The notes below the pieces were generated by a model. The model searched no databases. It was given only the letters and a program-made list of their open reading frames with translations, and was not told where the DNA came from. Source: Candidatus Buchananbacteria bacterium (GTDB lineage: Bacteria > Patescibacteriota > Patescibacteriia > 2-01-FULL-39-33). Taken from it: DNA of 35,537 nucleotides. Within the stretch, counting starts at the first letter, position 1. Every line of letters starts with the position of its first letter. Below are positions 1 through 32,559 of this stretch, in pieces. The position numbers and the translations under genes are program-made. The stretch is from positions 1 to 35,537 of the forward strand of contig JAGONZ010000003.1 in the NCBI GenBank assembly GCA_017992755.1, in the 5' to 3' direction.

Positions 1-1577
1 CCGCCGGGGCTGACCATGAAGTTAAATGGATTACTATACTCATCTGGATTGTAGACCAACACCGAAGAGCGCCCTTGGCGATTTTCCGGCACGGCATCAC
101 TGGCATCGTTATTATTGATAATCACTGCCAAGGAGCTGGTGACATTGTCAGGCTTGAAATTCCAAACAACGTTAGTTGCTTGATTATTGGGCGGTGTGAA
201 ATTAGTACCACGAACCCGCACGGGATCGGCGGCATTGCCGACCGGCTGACCACGTCGTTTGAGCGAATCAGCGTCGGTTGCAGTTGTAGTGTTTTCAACA
301 CTACAAATACCAGGTCGAACAATATCGTTGACCACAAAGTTTTTCGGATCACTCACGAAACCTACTGCTGTTTCAACCGTTGCCTCATGTGATTCGTGAA
401 CAATATCAGGTACCTCGAAAATAATCTGGTTCGGTTGCCAAGTGGCGGTATCGCTACAAATATTATTTGGGAAGTTTACTGAAAACGAACCTAAACTCAC
501 CGTTCCAGGATCTACACCAAAATGCCGGCCAGTAATCGTGATGAAATTTCCGGGTGCGCCATTACCTGGCGTCACGGCATCGATGATGGGAACTTGATTA
601 CACTGCATAGTACAACTGCCGCCACAGTTGCGTCCCGTTTCATCACCGTCCTGCGTCTCATTAAAACAATGTGGCGGATCGATAACAACCTTAATAATCT
701 TTGAATCATATGTCGTTGACAAGCCGCCACTTGGGGTCATCACCGTCTTAAGTTGCCAATTAGTTTTAAGGGCATAAACACCTTTATCGCTCGTATCCCA
801 ATTAACACTCGACCCAAATTTCTCACTAGTTGTTGAATTAGGAGTGAATGCCTGACTGTGGTCGCTAAAACTTCCCTGTTGTGCTGCTAATTGTAATTTT
901 ACATTATCAATCCCACCTTCGCGGTTGTAGGTATAGGCACCCACCGCTAGATCCACGGCGTTAGGAATTCCCACTGGCTCTTCATAAGAAAAGTTCTGCC
1001 CTATAGTGACCGCATCCCAACCTGTAAGTGATGGCGCGCTAAATTTAGTAATCCTAGTCCCCTGTTTGGTATCACCCGGACAAATCCGATCACCAAACCC
1101 ACAACTCCCCCAATGGCCATCAGCATCACACGTGCGCACCCCACCACTACACCCACCACTCGAACAACTCCGAGTCTCTCCGGGCGTACACGTATCGCCA
1201 CCATTTAAAAATTCACTGGTCGTTCTAAAAATCATTGCCACGATTGCAAACGCACTCAAAATAATTACCAAACCAATCAAGCCCTGAATAATAATTCTTT
1301 TAGCGCGCGTAACTTCATCAGCACTACCGCCGGCTTTCATCCAGATCCAGCCGCCGTAGAGCATGACGAGCACTGCAACGACACCCAAGAATCCTAAGAG
1401 CCATTGGACAACCAACACAATCCCCTCGCGGAGCGTCAGGTCAGTGCCTTGTAAGACACCAAAACTACCCTGACTGGTACCGAAATTATCCTGCGCCAAA
1501 GCTGGAACAACCAACACCGCCGAGAGTAGTAATGCGGCGAAGGTGGCAAGGATTAATTGGCGGCGGAAATAATTCAT
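1..1577 (-). CDS. Membrane-anchored surface protein, T4SS-pilin-like N-domain plus IPT/TIG region (3' end off window)
   Basis: Open frame from ATG at 1577 to the window edge: 525 codons, no stop, so the C-terminus is missing. The first ~28 residues are a signal peptide ending ALAQ. A short spacer and two membrane helices follow (about 50-75 and 95-115), separated by a YGGWIWMKAGG turn and a basic stretch. This is the layout of the type IV secretion pilin-like domain common in CPR genomes. Next come a Cys-rich segment (CTPGETRSC, later GDETGRNCGGSC) and an IPT/TIG-like domain around residues 330-420 (ITPG/ITITGRHFG-type start). The start lies 3 bp after the stop of the upstream paralogue at 1581-4640, so they are probably cotranscribed. 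The likely role is a surface or adhesion protein held by the N-terminal helices; this is inference from architecture. No secretion genes adjoin it. Confidence 0.8.
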   Translation of the reverse strand, partial: MNYFRRQLILATFAALLLSAVLVVPALAQDNFGTSQGSFGVLQGTDLTLREGIVLVVQWLLGFLGVVAVLVMLYGGWIWMKAGGSADEVTRAKRIIIQGLIGLVIILSAFAIVAMIFRTTSEFLNGGDTCTPGETRSCSSGGCSGGVRTCDADGHWGSCGFGDRICPGDTKQGTRITKFSAPSLTGWDAVTIGQNFSYEEPVGIPNAVDLAVGAYTYNREGGIDNVKLQLAAQQGSFSDHSQAFTPNSTTSEKFGSSVNWDTSDKGVYALKTNWQLKTVMTPSGGLSTTYDSKIIKVVIDPPHCFNETQDGDETGRNCGGSCTMQCNQVPIIDAVTPGNGAPGNFITITGRHFGVDPGTVSLGSFSVNFPNNICSDTATWQPNQIIFEVPDIVHESHEATVETAVGFVSDPKNFVVNDIVRPGICSVENTTTATDADSLKRRGQPVGNAADPVRVRGTNFTPPNNQATNVVWNFKPDNVTSSLAVIINNNDASDAVPENRQGRSSVLVYNPDEYSNPFNFMVSPG

Positions 1578-1580
1578 ATG

Positions 1581-4500
1581 CTAGGGCGTGCACTTACCAA
1601 AGCAACAGCCAAGACCATTTGGATAATCTTCAGTGACCACCCAACTACCATCTATTGGTGTTTCTGCAGTTGAATGATGGGCAAAGCAAGTCGTCGCACA
1701 TGTAGCGGCTCCGGAAATATCTTCGCAGCGCATTTTAGCGTATGAAGCCGGATTAGGGAGTGTGACTTGAGCTGTCGTACCACCTGATTGAGTTTGGCCA
1801 CTGCCATTAACATCACTCGTGCAGCCAACGGTTGTCCCATCGGTCGCGCTTTGATACTGACAATTATTATTGCCAGCACCATTACCAGCATTTTTCGGTC
1901 CAGCACCGGGCAAAAAACAATTTTGATACACATCCTGCACGCCCGAACCAATAAATGGAGTATAGCTAACATTTGGATCAAGTCGGCTGTGGCGAATTTC
2001 GGCAGTGGTAAAATCAGCAAATGAATCGCGATCGGTATCGGTGCCTTCTTGGGCAATCCAATACCCGACCGGGTTAGCGCTTTTTGTCAGCGTCTCAAAT
2101 GCAACATATCGTTGGCTGCGCTCAAGGATTGTTTCGCCATAGTTCCACCCTGGTTTTAATGTGGAGCTGCGCACCAACCCATTAAATTCAATTACTACTG
2201 GTTGCCGATAATCAACTACTACTTCGTCACCAATTGGCGTAATTCGAGACACTAACGGCGACCGTAATTCAATTTTATCAGAAATCCAAAAGCTCCAATT
2301 GAAGCTATCTCCAATGCCGCCAGTTGCCGGCATTGAAGGTGTATATAAAGGCGTAATTGCATTGAGGATGTAGAAATTCTTTCCTGAATGACCGGTGCCG
2401 GTGCCCGATGCGCCATCGCTAGCACCAAGAATTGTATTAGGGGCGTCAGCGTCCGTGTAATAATCAAAGCTGCCATTGAGTGAATTACCAGCAATATCAA
2501 TAACGCCTTGCGCTACCTGATCAGTGGCAGTGCCTGGGTATTTAATCGTGCGACTCCCAATGGTTTTAGTACAGACGTCGCCGACAGTGCATTGACCACG
2601 CCACGCACTACACCAGGAAGTGTCCGCTCCGCACGTCCGCAATGGCGCCGCGCCGATACCAACTGAATAGTACGTAGCTTTATGGGCGTAATCTTGAGGA
2701 TTGGCTTTGACTAAAGCATTGGTTGGCCAACAAGTAATTTGTTCACCACAAGCATTTTGGCCGCAGGCTTCGGTGCTCCGCAATTCAATCGTTCGGTAGT
2801 TGTTAGAAATCTCTGCAGTATATGAAACGTCTTGAGCTGTACTTAAATTAGTATCGCCATCGATATTGGCGCGCACTTGGAACACTCCTTGGTCAACAAT
2901 CAGCGGACTGACCGCTTCATTGAACGTAATTTGAATAATCGCATTCCGAGCAACGTCCGGTCGGCCAGTAACTGTCTTTTGTTCGCTCGCCGCTACACCA
3001 CCCGCAGCAGTGACCATGATTAAATTAGCCGTACCAGTAGCCGCCGGCACAAACTTCAAGCCATATTCGCTGGCAGGCGTCCCCGTTTCTATCGTTTCGA
3101 CACAGCCAGCACCACACAGTTTAAATAAAGACCCAAAGTCGGTGACCAGGCGATTAGCAATTGCCGCGGCGGTAGCCGCGCCAGTGCTGCCAGTTTGAAT
3201 ATCCGCGCCGATCACATACCTTTTGAGATTGTTAACGCCACGCGCCAACTCCAATTGATCCCCTGTTTGAGCTGGAGTCACGGTTAAGCTCCAACTCGTG
3301 CCGGGCTCTGGTCGGGCAGCGACGCTCATTTGTAAGCCATTACCTAAACTAAACACCGTACCGCCGTTATATGCAGTATCAGTAAACGAACTGCCGTCGC
3401 TATAGGTCGTTTTTGGCTTTAAATCATTGCCCATCACAATCGTCACGTTGCCACCTACACGACCGCCGTACGTGCCATTAATTGTTGCCGCTGGGGCATT
3501 CGGAGTTTGGGCAATAACAGCACTCACCGTGGCCACTTGCTGTGATTTTAACTGCTGATTGTTGCCGTCAGTAATCGTGATCGCCAAGCGGCGAGCTGAC
3601 GCTGGCGTTCCGAGCGCGTAGAGGTCGGCTTCGTTATCAGGGTCAGGGAAGACGCCGCTGACACTCGCCATACTGCGTGGATTTAATAATTCGTTGGTGC
3701 TCAGGATTTCTGGCGGATCTAGATCAACTTCGCCGTTGGTGGTGAAATCCCACGCATATTGGCTACCGCCCCAAGCATTAAACACTGAGGCATTCGTAGC
3801 TTTGGCTAAAATATCTTTTTGCAGCACCACATAAAATTGACGATCGACTTGATCTTGTTGTCCTAAATACTTGTTAGGCGTCAAGACAAATGTTCGATTG
3901 TCATTGGTTTGGCTGACAGTCGTCGCTGTGAACTCATCGGCGGAAAAATTATCAGGTACGTCATCAGTAACACAGCCACGCGCCGTTTCGGTGTCGGTAT
4001 ATAAACAGAGCTGAACGTTCTTAAGCGGCTCGCCGTCGCATTTGTCGTTACCGTTGCGATCATCACAGATCGAGCTCGGCACAACTTGCTCTTTAAAAGT
4101 CACCGCAATCCAAGTATTAATTGGCACTTCCTGCTGGCCCTTCTCTGGATAGGTACTCGCAATTGGTCCGAGACCGATACCCGAGCGCCAGCGATCACTG
4201 GCACAGCCAGGACATGGATTGTCAGGGCCGCCGTTATTGCGACCATAACCGAGCAGGTTGAAAATTAACGTGACAATTCCAAACGACACCAAGATAATTA
4301 CTAGCCCAATTATACCGTTGCGGATAATCTTTTTCGCCTGAATAATCTTTTTATCATCACCCCCGGCAGTCATCCAGACAAAGCCGCCGTACAGGATTAC
4401 CAAAACGACAACGACCGCTAGGAAGCCAAGAAGATACTGAACGACACGGATAATCGCCCCGCGCAAATCAAGGTCAGGTGCTCGGAGAATATCGAAACTG

Positions 4501-4640
4501 CCGCTCGTTACTTGAAAGGCGTCAGTACCAGTGGTCTGCGCTGAAACCACCAACGGCAAAGCCATCGCCGCGATAAACGCGATGATGATGAAATACTTGC
4601 TGATTCTGGATGTGAGCCTGTGCATGGGTTCAGGGTACAT
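1581..4640 (-). CDS. Large surface protein, T4SS-pilin-like N-domain plus Ig-like (Big_5/SbsA-type) repeats
   Basis: About 1019 residues. The signal peptide ends VVSAQ, then two membrane helices (about 62-85 and 108-130) flank a YGGFVWMTAGGDDKK turn and an amphipathic basic linker, matching the N-domain of the next gene. The extracellular part holds at least three SbsA-type Ig-like modules. They start near IASTYPEKGQQEVPIN, GRPDVARNAIIQITF and VSRITPIGDEVVVDY. An acidic DRNGNDKCDGE loop may bind calcium. The C-terminal ~80 residues are Cys-rich (CED, CATTC, CCFGKC), suggesting disulfides outside the cell. ATG at 4640 lies 2 bp after the yqeY stop. GTG at 4643 and ATG at 4625 are alternatives, and the last gives the neatest signal peptide. 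Function is inferred: an anchored adhesin or appendage component. Confidence 0.88.
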   Translation of the reverse strand: MYPEPMHRLTSRISKYFIIIAFIAAMALPLVVSAQTTGTDAFQVTSGSFDILRAPDLDLRGAIIRVVQYLLGFLAVVVVLVILYGGFVWMTAGGDDKKIIQAKKIIRNGIIGLVIILVSFGIVTLIFNLLGYGRNNGGPDNPCPGCASDRWRSGIGLGPIASTYPEKGQQEVPINTWIAVTFKEQVVPSSICDDRNGNDKCDGEPLKNVQLCLYTDTETARGCVTDDVPDNFSADEFTATTVSQTNDNRTFVLTPNKYLGQQDQVDRQFYVVLQKDILAKATNASVFNAWGGSQYAWDFTTNGEVDLDPPEILSTNELLNPRSMASVSGVFPDPDNEADLYALGTPASARRLAITITDGNNQQLKSQQVATVSAVIAQTPNAPAATINGTYGGRVGGNVTIVMGNDLKPKTTYSDGSSFTDTAYNGGTVFSLGNGLQMSVAARPEPGTSWSLTVTPAQTGDQLELARGVNNLKRYVIGADIQTGSTGAATAAAIANRLVTDFGSLFKLCGAGCVETIETGTPASEYGLKFVPAATGTANLIMVTAAGGVAASEQKTVTGRPDVARNAIIQITFNEAVSPLIVDQGVFQVRANIDGDTNLSTAQDVSYTAEISNNYRTIELRSTEACGQNACGEQITCWPTNALVKANPQDYAHKATYYSVGIGAAPLRTCGADTSWCSAWRGQCTVGDVCTKTIGSRTIKYPGTATDQVAQGVIDIAGNSLNGSFDYYTDADAPNTILGASDGASGTGTGHSGKNFYILNAITPLYTPSMPATGGIGDSFNWSFWISDKIELRSPLVSRITPIGDEVVVDYRQPVVIEFNGLVRSSTLKPGWNYGETILERSQRYVAFETLTKSANPVGYWIAQEGTDTDRDSFADFTTAEIRHSRLDPNVSYTPFIGSGVQDVYQNCFLPGAGPKNAGNGAGNNNCQYQSATDGTTVGCTSDVNGSGQTQSGGTTAQVTLPNPASYAKMRCEDISGAATCATTCFAHHSTAETPIDGSWVVTEDYPNGLGCCFGKCTP

Positions 4641-4642
4641 CA

Positions 4643-5092
4643 CTACTTGTTAGCTAATTTGGCTTTGACGATCGCCGACACTTGTTGGCCGTCAGCGCGA
4701 TCTTTGAGTTTGGCCATTGCCGCGCCCATAATCGCTCCGAAACCATTCGCACCAGAGGCAATAGCCTCATCGACGGCCGCGACGATCTCGGCTTCGCTGA
4801 GCGGCTCCGGCAGAAAAGTTTTAATCAACTCTGCCTCTCGCTCTTCTTGCTCTGCCAGCTCTGCCCGATCGTTATCACGATAACTTGTGGCCGACTCGAC
4901 GCGCTTTTTGAGTTCGCTGCGCAACACGGCGATGAGCTCCGGATCGGGTAACGGCTGATCTTTTGCCGCGCCGCTTTCGATCTTGCGGTTAGTGATTGCC
5001 GCCTTGATCATTCGGAGGATGCCGATTGTTGCTAGATCTTTAGCCTTAGCAGCTTCGAGGTAGCGATTATCAATCTGTTCGTTCAGTGACAT
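4643..5092 (-). CDS. yqeY: GatB/YqeY domain protein
   Basis: A 149-residue protein matching the stand-alone YqeY family (about 150 residues), which is related to the tail domain of the GatB amidotransferase subunit and is presumed to act on tRNA-linked amidation. Family traits are the N-terminal helix with SLNEQIDNRYLEAAKAKD, the region around ELKKRVESATSYRDNDR, and the C-terminal block GANGFGAIMGAAMAKLKDRADGQ. It follows rpsU by 57 bp, an arrangement seen in many bacteria, and runs directly into the first surface-protein gene. The biochemical role of YqeY is not settled in the family; I add nothing beyond membership. Confidence 0.92.
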   Translation of the reverse strand: MSLNEQIDNRYLEAAKAKDLATIGILRMIKAAITNRKIESGAAKDQPLPDPELIAVLRSELKKRVESATSYRDNDRAELAEQEEREAELIKTFLPEPLSEAEIVAAVDEAIASGANGFGAIMGAAMAKLKDRADGQQVSAIVKAKLANK

Positions 5093-5436: not shown

Positions 5437-6876
5437 CTAAGGGGTAATATCTTCCAGTTCATCAAAATGCTTCACTTCATGCTCCAGGGCCAGCGCTTCT
5501 GGCTCGGGTGTAACTTCTACTGGCGCGGCCGCGACGATCTGCCGTTGCTCATGGCGCTCCAAGCGGCGGACCAACTCTGATTCAATCTTATTGAAATCAA
5601 TAGTCTCCTGAATCCCGCCATCCATATCACGCACGAGAATCGTGCCGTCACCAATTTCTTTTTGACCGAGGATCAAGCAAAATTTCACGCCCAGCTTGTT
5701 GGCTAATTCCAACTGCTGCTTGAGCGTGTCCTTGTTGAAAGCCTGGGCCAATTTGAAACCGCGGCTGCGCAAGCGCTCATAAAGTACGAGCGTTTTTTTC
5801 TTGGCGGCATCGCCAAGTTGTGCCACAAAAATATCAGCCTGAGTTTCGTCGGCCACTTTGATATCTTGCTCACGCAGGCGAGCTACAATTCGGTCCATAC
5901 CGAGCGACAACCCACACGCCGGCGTCATTTCGCGACCGCCAAGCATTTCAACTAAGTGATCATATCGACCACCACCGCCGAGCGACGTTTTGCCAGTGGC
6001 ATCATCGATCGCCCAGTATTCAAAAATAGTGCGGGTGTAATAATCTAATCCCCGTACGATAAATGGGTTAAGGTTGTACGGCAAATCAAGCTCATCCAAA
6101 TATTCAATCACTTTCATTAAGTGCTTCTTGGATGATTCGTCCAAATAATCAAGGATTTGAGGGGCGCCTTCACGCAATGCCACACACGCTTCTTCTTTGC
6201 AATCAAGTAAGCGCAATGGGTTTTTGGTCAAGCGAGTTTTACAATTTTCATCAAGCTCTTTGCTGTGCGCTTTGTAATATTTTACGAGCGCTTTTTTGTA
6301 CTCTTCGCGTGATTCGGGATAGCCGAGGCTATTGATCTGAATCGTGGCTTCCAACCCGAGCTCGCGCAAGCAGTTATACCCCATCAAAATCATCTGGGCA
6401 TCCAGGGCTGGGTTATCTTCGCCGATCGCTTCATAGCCAAGTTGATAAAACTGACGATAGCGGCCAGCTTGTGGTCGTTCGTGTCTGAACTGTGGACCAA
6501 CATAGAAAAACTTCACCGGCTGCATTTGATTAAGCATGCCGTGCTGAATATAAGCCCGGACAACACCGGCTGTCATTTCTGGTCGAAGCGCTAATTGATC
6601 ACCACCCTGATCGGCAAACATATACATTTCTTTTTCAACGATGTCGGTTTGTTTACCAACACCGCGGATAAAGAGATCAGCATGTTCGACGATCGGCGTA
6701 TCGATGCGGCCATACCCGTAATCATCAGCAATCTTCTGAGCTACGCGTCGGAGCGCTCGCCAGTGCTGCTGGTCTTGCGGCAAAATATCGCGCATGCCGC
6801 TAACTGTCGCGATGTCGCGCTTGGTTTTCTTAGGTTTCTTTTCAGGCTCGACGGCCTTTGGTGCTTTCATTGCCAT
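5437..6876 (-). CDS. hisS: Histidine--tRNA ligase
   Basis: 479 residues, class II aminoacyl-tRNA synthetase that charges tRNA-His. Visible motifs are motif 1 around IDTPIVEHADLFIRGVG, motif 2 with ALRPEMTAGVVRAYI and FRHERPQAGRYRQFYQLG, the histidine-specific blocks GLDYYTRTIFEYW and LGGGGRYDHLVEMLGG, motif 3 ACGLSLGMDRI, and a C-terminal anticodon-binding domain from about residue 345. There is an N-terminal Lys-rich extension of ~20 residues and an acidic C-terminal tail of ~35 residues beyond the usual family end. The start ATG at 6876 lies 5 bp after the lepB stop. A promoter inside the end of lepB (6888-6917) would give a short leader. Confidence 0.97.
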   Translation of the reverse strand: MAMKAPKAVEPEKKPKKTKRDIATVSGMRDILPQDQQHWRALRRVAQKIADDYGYGRIDTPIVEHADLFIRGVGKQTDIVEKEMYMFADQGGDQLALRPEMTAGVVRAYIQHGMLNQMQPVKFFYVGPQFRHERPQAGRYRQFYQLGYEAIGEDNPALDAQMILMGYNCLRELGLEATIQINSLGYPESREEYKKALVKYYKAHSKELDENCKTRLTKNPLRLLDCKEEACVALREGAPQILDYLDESSKKHLMKVIEYLDELDLPYNLNPFIVRGLDYYTRTIFEYWAIDDATGKTSLGGGGRYDHLVEMLGGREMTPACGLSLGMDRIVARLREQDIKVADETQADIFVAQLGDAAKKKTLVLYERLRSRGFKLAQAFNKDTLKQQLELANKLGVKFCLILGQKEIGDGTILVRDMDGGIQETIDFNKIESELVRRLERHEQRQIVAAAPVEVTPEPEALALEHEVKHFDELEDITP

Positions 6877-6881
6877 ACAGT

Positions 6882-7481
6882 TTAGAAATTATAGTCAGGA
6901 TCGTTAAATACCGTCAGACGCTCAATCGGCCAGCCACGAATCCAGGTGCGGCCGATAATAAAATCTTTATTGACTGGACCAAAACTGCGTGAATCTTTGC
7001 TCTGTTCTCGGTTATCACCAAGCAAGAAATACTGGTTATCGCCAAGTGTCACATCGCCAAACCCGTGAAGCGCCAGCTCAGTCCGACGATCAGCGGGTAA
7101 GTATGTTTCATTAAGCAACTGGGGTTCGCTGCCATTTTTGGAAATATACACCTGATCATCGCGAATCGTCACCCGTTCCCCTGGCAATCCAATAATCCGT
7201 TTAATGAAAAATTGTTTCGGATCCAGTGGGTATTTAAACACGACAATTTCTCCGCGCTCTGGTTCGCGCACTCGATAACTCAACTCATCAATAATCAAGT
7301 ACTCATGATCGTAAAAGTTCGGCTCCATTGATTCACCTTTGACATAGAAAGGTTGAATCAAGAAATAACGAACTGGAACGATAATTGCCAACGAAATTAC
7401 CGCCACTTTAATGACCTCAAACACGAGGCTGCCAAGAGCAGCTCCACGTGAGGGTGTGGATGACTGATAATTTTCGCTCAT
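6882..7481 (-). CDS. lepB: Signal peptidase I
   Basis: 199 residues from ATG 7481. One N-terminal membrane helix (about 18-42) is followed by the S26 peptidase fold. The catalytic Ser51 lies in KGESMEPN, the catalytic Lys94 in FFIKRIIGLPGERV, and the conserved box GDNREQSKDSRSFGPV follows. It cleaves signal peptides of exported proteins on the outer face of the membrane; the two surface proteins downstream in the same run are obvious substrates. An in-frame TTG at 7502 is unlikely as the start because it would lie upstream of the -10 element at 7491-7496. The predicted transcript starts about 3 bases before ATG 7481. Confidence 0.95.
   Translation of the reverse strand: MSENYQSSTPSRGAALGSLVFEVIKVAVISLAIIVPVRYFLIQPFYVKGESMEPNFYDHEYLIIDELSYRVREPERGEIVVFKYPLDPKQFFIKRIIGLPGERVTIRDDQVYISKNGSEPQLLNETYLPADRRTELALHGFGDVTLGDNQYFLLGDNREQSKDSRSFGPVNKDFIIGRTWIRGWPIERLTVFNDPDYNF
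6888..6917 (-). promoter_or_regulatory. Probable internal promoter for hisS
   Basis: On the minus strand CTGACG (6912-6917) is followed after 18 bp by a perfect TATAAT (6888-6893), 11 bases before the hisS ATG. It lies inside the last codons of lepB. The -35 matches consensus at 4 of 6 positions. Confidence 0.5.
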
Positions 7482-7490
7482 ATAGGCTTT

Positions 7491-7519
7491 AAGATAGCAC
7501 AAACAACCCTAATTGGCAA
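7491..7519 (-). promoter_or_regulatory. lepB promoter, near-leaderless
   Basis: TTGCCA (7514-7519), 17 bp, TATCTT (7491-7496) on the minus strand. The expected transcript start near 7484 is about 3 bases before the lepB ATG at 7481, so no Shine-Dalgarno sequence fits in the mRNA. It decides the lepB start. Confidence 0.7.
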
Positions 7520-32145: not shown

Positions 32146-32533
32146 GGGGATGTTTTGTTTCGATAGCAATATCGCCCTGACCTGCAGCAAGCCGAGGCGG
32201 CCACGATCCTCGTACTCTCTCCGTGGCAACCCATAAGTGTAAGCAACTTTACCGCAAAACTTCGAACTGCCTTTGGCAGCTTCGCCTTTGCACCAGCAGT
32301 CGCCTAACGGCCACTGCCATCACCCGCGGCAATACCTAGTAGTCGCATCGGTGGTGTCATATCACTAGGTCTGACCGTCGTTCCGCTCGAGGCGACGTCA
32401 TCAGGCTTTTCGAGCACCTCACTGCAGTGTTTTGCTTTTTTTAAGCTGCAGCTGAGTACTTAAAAAAGTAAAGCTTGTATACCTGCTGTCGGAGCCGTTG
32501 TTAGACAGGAGTTCATTGCTCCTCATCTCCACC
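32146..32533 (+). ncRNA. ssrA: Transfer-messenger RNA (tmRNA)
   Basis: 388 bases filling the gap between smpB and infC. The 5' end GGGGATG pairs with CATCTCC (32524-32530) to form the tRNA-like acceptor stem, followed by discriminator A and CC. The T arm is AGGAG-TTCATTG-CTCCT. After the 5' part, TTTCGATAGC matches the conserved start region. A tag frame ends GCACCAGCAGTCGCC-TAA (TAA at 32305-32307), encoding a hydrophobic end FAPAVA. It appears to start around AGC AAC at 32242, giving about 21 residues. Several inverted segments downstream fit pseudoknots. It rescues stalled ribosomes with SmpB. Confidence 0.93.
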
Positions 32534-32559
32534 TGATAGTTTAAATTCATAAGCACCGA

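Follow-up and report, generated by a model that had tools for sequence, protein, structure and literature searches.

The window analysed here is a stretch of 35,537 nucleotides from a Candidatus Buchananbacteria genome and comprises an entire contig (G000:C26). Two adjacent genes on the minus strand at its left end, called A and B below, encode large proteins that we refer to as the giants (Table 1). By hydropathy, the hydrophobic segments of both are confined to the N-terminus and consist of a signal-peptide-like segment and two helices, which supports the surface location proposed in an earlier note on this DNA. With regard to the start of gene A, the GTG at 4643 gives 1020 residues, and the length of about 1019 residues in that note is correct for the ATG at the next codon. 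The frame of gene B is cut by the contig end, so that at least 525 residues are encoded in the window. The stop codon of yqeY overlaps the start of gene A and only 3 nt separate the stop of A from the start of B; thus these genes look translationally coupled. The lepB-hisS-yqeY flank that had been read from the sequence was borne out by profile matches. The remaining annotated part of the window consists mostly of housekeeping genes, with a tmRNA gene at 32146-32534 and four tRNA genes elsewhere.

Table 1. Positions in the window of the two pilin-fusion genes, their domains and the conserved flanking genes.
Feature	Position	Strand	Evidence or content
Gene A, pilin-fusion protein, 1020 aa	1581..4643	-	Signal peptide, pilin hairpin, Ig-like/other beta domains, Cys-rich tail
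Gene B, giant pilin-fusion protein, first 525 aa	3..1577	-	Open to contig end
Pilin domain of A, residues 51-140	4224..4493	-	TM1, YGGFVWMTAGG loop, AKK, TM2
First Ig-like (Big_5) domain of A, about residues 158-304	3732..4172	-	PF13205 8.7e-9; beta strands in model
Pilin domain of B, residues 40-129	1191..1460	-	PF18895; similarity to A
TIG domain of B, residues 330-414	336..590	-	PF01833 8e-9
yqeY, directly upstream of A, conserved flank	4643..5092	-	PF09424 2e-36; synteny
hisS, conserved flank	5437..6876	-	Synteny
lepB signal peptidase, conserved flank	6882..7502	-	PF10502 2e-45; synteny

In the whole-protein scan, A matched the T4SS_pilin family (PF18895) at 9.8e-7, above the curated cut-off, and its pilin domain alone matched at 3e-8. 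B matched the same family at 7.2e-5, below the cut-off, in the whole-protein scan and with 27.5 bits, above the cut-off, in the genome search. The NCBIfam model for Mbov_0395 pilin-like proteins was matched by both below its cut-off (A, 1.4e-6; B, 1.5e-5). The N-terminal domains of A and B are 48% identical over 122 residues (E 9e-31), and all 50 hairpin-domain members tested from relatives matched PF18895; TrbC/VirB2 (PF04956) matched 14 of these 50 at 1e-3 or better, and the B of the window only at 0.07. The shared pilin-family domain claimed in the earlier note is therefore confirmed by the PF18895 matches and the A-B identity, and a lack of profile similarity to the pilin family, which the note had named as the result that would speak against it, was not what we found. 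Its description of a fusion to different ectodomains also holds, as A carries a Cys-rich tail besides Big_5 and B a Cys-rich collar besides TIG. On the other hand, VirB2/T4SS_pilin proteins are small stand-alone proteins encoded near virB4, whereas A has 1020 residues, B has at least 525, and the giants are encoded on C26 next to a housekeeping flank and virB4 on C34. A and B are classed as PF18895 pilin-domain proteins and not as VirB2 pilins, from which they differ in size and gene context.

PF18895 proteins were present in all 57 genomes searched (the source genome and relatives), and many matches in relatives were frames of about 600-1100 residues immediately followed by frames of about 2800-4700 residues. 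The gene order common to relatives is lepB-hisS-(small gene)-yqeY-A-B-TSP3 gene-D-ybeY, where the TSP3 gene encodes a protein of about 260 residues with bacterial TSP3 repeats and D one of about 350 residues; in the source genome these two genes would lie beyond the window's end. In some lineages yqeY is absent from the locus, eight genomes have B without A at the same locus (L103-L109, L117), and one genome has two giants (L110). Downstream sequence of 450 nt or more was available for 98 A loci. B followed A in 96 of them with a median gap of 20.5 nt, a count of loci and not of independent events since the locus set includes some genomes twice. The pairing of A and B is far beyond chance, since it is found again and again in members of the class. 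Comparison of fused and stand-alone copies in relatives, which the earlier note had suggested as a check, revealed the fused pair class-wide and stand-alone pilins at other loci. An apparent absence of A from L094 was rejected as an artefact of ORF choice; A is present in the synteny data.

A profile of residues 1-330 of A found 406 encoding stretches in a species-level genome collection, and the best 80 of the 406 were mainly labelled Buchanan-, Falkow-, Uhr- or Magasanikbacteria or unnamed Parcubacteria/Patescibacteria. The group formed by these four names corresponds to the class ABY1. Across 88 genomes sampled evenly from the phylum, the full architecture of A was found in all 6 members of the class and in none of the 82 other Patescibacteria, and long fused pilin frames outside the class were few and of a different kind. 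Frames of 1243-1677 residues with pilin-domain matches outside the class (G107:C6, G119:C8, G059:C30 and G072:C1) are perhaps independent fusions.

The pilin domain is constant among relatives, while the ectodomains vary and contain Laminin_G_3, TIG, Big_5, Big_7, DUF4215, CBM_4_9 and TSP_3 modules and cysteine-rich acidic repeats. A-type proteins of relatives have 345-1131 residues and B-type proteins mostly 1480-4729; complete unmasked B proteins lie within the latter range and have 53-230 cysteines, except for a 594-residue frame in L133, and the B of L105, which is partly N, was left out of the B length statistics. A B frame of 14,266 residues in G125 (L218-L220, G125:C1) was rejected as spurious, produced by 40 kb of bases masked as N. 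Hydropathy detected no C-terminal membrane segment or anchor in 26 of 26 complete B proteins, which thus lack this trait of LPXTG-type sorting signals. In the AlphaFold model of A (mean pLDDT 72), a flexible linker joins the hairpin to a series of beta domains, some of them Ig-like, after which come a disordered region and the Cys-rich tail. Foldseek with the whole model gave only generic cadherin or Ig-like matches, and a PDB sequence search with the whole-A profile gave no matches.

The two genes 3' of B encode proteins with one membrane segment each, most of them with TSP3-like repeats, and probably belong to one surface operon with the giants. Such a conserved gene pair lies at L080:17285-19170, with equivalents at other loci. 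The reading of A and B as adhesin fusions is supported by the lectin-like LamG, TIG, Ig and carbohydrate-binding modules on B. A role as surface adhesins of whatever kind is considerably more likely than the assembly with free pilins discussed below. Since the giants are very large, cysteine-rich, class-wide and nearly always present, and TSP3-repeat membrane proteins are encoded downstream, they might instead be wall or S-layer-like structural proteins that, with these partners, hold the envelope or attach a sheath. We consider this very improbable, because the LamG, carbohydrate-binding and TIG modules vary among relatives, which fits binding better than a uniform lattice, and no S-layer domain was found.

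Eight PF18895 matches were found in the source genome, namely the two giants and six stand-alone pilins, five in an array on C25 (L009 8412-10796) and one on C14. C34 of the same genome encodes PrgI, an N-terminal part of VirB4, the VirB4 ATPase and a VirB6-like protein of 1111 residues with many hydrophobic segments, named by hydropathy and position and not by profile. VirB4 (NF045971) was detected in 54 of the 57 genomes. The earlier note had concluded that no secretion ATPase accompanies the giants and that the system may be self-contained; the former is right for the immediate neighbourhood and wrong genome-wide, and the VirB4, PrgI and VirB6-like proteins on C34, like the VirB4 of the relatives, leave the latter unsupported. 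Of the three genomes without a VirB4 match, G044 is only 79% complete. In the other two, G027 (estimated to be 98% complete) and G038 (100%), which are draft assemblies, neither VirB4 nor PrgI was detected at the sensitivity used, and both keep giants (L090, L097) and pilin genes. Real loss or a missing contig could each explain this. These two genomes count against a strict dependence of the giants on the T4SS and keep the idea of a self-contained system from being closed. In G012, seven stand-alone pilins form an array headed by a gene (L116, 5355-7337) for a 660-residue, 44-cysteine protein in which a pilin-like domain begins at about residue 197.

Conservation of the hairpin was compared in an alignment of sequences from the class, 99 of them from A, 97 from B and 110 from stand-alone pilins. 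The column entropy averaged 1.62 bits for A, 1.60 for B and 2.20 for stand-alone pilins, a comparison that is imperfectly fair because the stand-alone set includes diverse paralogs. In the giants, conservation reaches 97-100% at the glycines of the loop, at the alanine that follows it and at the glycine in helix 2. Better conservation of the loop than in working pilins is not expected of a mere anchor, and the domain looks from these alignments like more than an ordinary two-helix anchor, the alternative that the earlier note had named as contrary to its reading and that the tracking of own-genome pilins (see below) also speaks against. With regard to structure, AlphaFold predicted helices at 10-42 and 47-86 of the hairpin of A (pLDDT 84). 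Foldseek returned no conjugative pilin among the 50 best hits, only coincidental helical hairpins, a bare hairpin being uninformative in such a search, and a PDB sequence search with the hairpin found no solved relative. The hairpin may have been recruited once from a pilin and serve only to hold the adhesins in the membrane, without any assembly with pilins or the T4SS. This would agree with the unremarkable predicted structure, the distance of the locus from virB4 and the retention of giants in G027 and G038; nevertheless, we regard it as unlikely, though still to be taken seriously, because the putative cytoplasmic loop and packing glycines are better conserved than in stand-alone pilins and because the domains track the pilins of their own genome.

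This tracking was evident from hairpin identities. Mean identity was 65% between A and B of the same locus, 51% between A proteins of different genomes and 38% between fused and free hairpins, and 52 of 89 A genes had their closest match among 97 B hairpins in their own neighbour. Over 17 genomes, the best-matching free pilin from the own genome was 57.7% identical to the giants against 47.0% for permuted pairings, and the maximum of 20,000 permutations was 52.9% (p about 5e-5). The effect persisted with a reduced alphabet and also at polar positions only. Moreover, A and B mostly point to one and the same array member, which in the source genome is a 133-residue pilin (L009 9291-9692). Among free pilins, identity was 0.39 within arrays versus 0.35 across genomes. 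A tree of 306 hairpins placed fused and free ones largely apart with some intermixing (15 changes versus 89 when shuffled), the hairpin being too short for firm deep branching.

Recent gene conversion between giants and free pilins found no support as the general cause of this matching, as identity at synonymous sites was near background (210 of 582, 193 expected), a result that cannot separate old domain copying from joint selection. On the other hand, A and B of the same locus showed an excess of synonymous-site identity (826 of 1809, 623 expected). In L129 (A at 1482-4403, B downstream), the two pilin domains are 95% identical and 27 of 27 fourfold sites are identical, a clear case of recent DNA-level homogenisation between tandem genes. 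The matching with own-genome free pilins may thus be due either to repeated domain copying or to joint selection, and both would imply a shared constraint on fused and free hairpins, which fits their co-assembly. The hairpins of A and B could also form a ring or patch of their own, as homo- or hetero-oligomers, and cluster the adhesins without free pilins or the T4SS. This possibility, which is close to the idea of the earlier note, draws on the unusual likeness of A and B hairpins at the same locus, the homogenisation in some loci and the giants of the two genomes without detectable VirB4. It seems improbable to us because the similarity reaches stand-alone pilins at other loci, PF18895 proteins occur in every class-sample genome checked, and B stands alone at the locus in eight genomes.

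The reading that we prefer, and to which we give about an even chance, treats A and B as fusions of a pilin to an adhesin. They would assemble together with the free pilins of the class, and the resulting T4SS-type pilus or ring would serve to attach the cell to its host. Sec would export A and B, and the signal peptide would then be removed. From hydropathy, the hairpin is predicted to remain in the membrane so that its GG/W/K-rich loop faces the cytoplasm and the long C-terminal part is exposed on the cell exterior. The hairpin would join the stand-alone VirB2-like pilins in a pilus or membrane ring, probably assisted by the T4SS core (VirB4, PrgI and the VirB6-like protein). The giants may present their Ig, TIG and LamG modules for host-cell binding, and would perhaps sit at the tip or base of the structure or act as minor subunits. 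Several points count against this co-assembly: the locus of the giants is away from virB4, old domain copying could also give the own-genome similarity, Foldseek returned no conjugative pilin for the hairpin, and an ectodomain of 3000-5000 residues might not fit easily into a pilus. As a whole, the interpretation of the earlier note is partly supported. The more comprehensive picture of a class-wide T4SS-derived pilus or ring, in which some pilins are covalently fused to giant lectin-like adhesins and fused and free domains are kept matched in each genome, is put forward tentatively, as its chance falls somewhat below even.

Patescibacteria are thought to lead a life attached to other cells, and the members of this class are tiny and probably host-attached. 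The synteny-locked, class-wide pair of pilin-domain giants is a concrete candidate for a host-contact device that ties adhesion to a secretion machine, and it reduces the question of attachment to tests on named genes. The occurrence, in nearly all sampled members of the class, of giants that join a pilin domain to putative sugar-binding modules suggests a previously undescribed attachment device. If our reading is true, host attachment and the secretion pilus would be one structure. A survey of T4SS in Patescibacteria in 2025 reported arrays of 2-11 genes for VirB2-like pilins and detected no PrgB-like adhesins, and pilin-adhesin fusions are absent from the part of its account considered here (PMC12102498). 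In Southlakia, a cultured member of Patescibacteria, the T4SS and the pilin array are essential (PMC10633639). Another paper discussed a possible pilus (PMC12857230), and T4SS-pilin and Ig-fold proteins were reported to be highly expressed in other Patescibacteria, as separate items (PMC10936435). No description of giant pilin-fusion proteins was found in the open-access literature searched.

The giants share with the VirB2-like pilins of Patescibacteria the two-helix domain, the loop motif, the signal peptide and paralogs in the same genome. However, those pilins are small stand-alone proteins (108-242 residues in the set sampled), whereas the giants carry extracellular modules after the domain and occupy a separate conserved locus. 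VirB5, the tip protein of the Gram-negative T4SS, resembles the giants in the proposed role as a receptor-binding component of a pilus but is a separate protein that is not fused to a pilin. FimH-type two-domain tip adhesins of chaperone-usher pili are analogous to the giants in combining a pilin domain with a binding part, although their fold and assembly pathway are unrelated and they are far smaller. Finally, the PrgB/LPXTG adhesins of Gram-positive conjugation are likewise large adhesins serving a monoderm T4SS; a C-terminal LPXTG signal fixes them to the wall, whereas the giants would be anchored by an N-terminal pilin hairpin.
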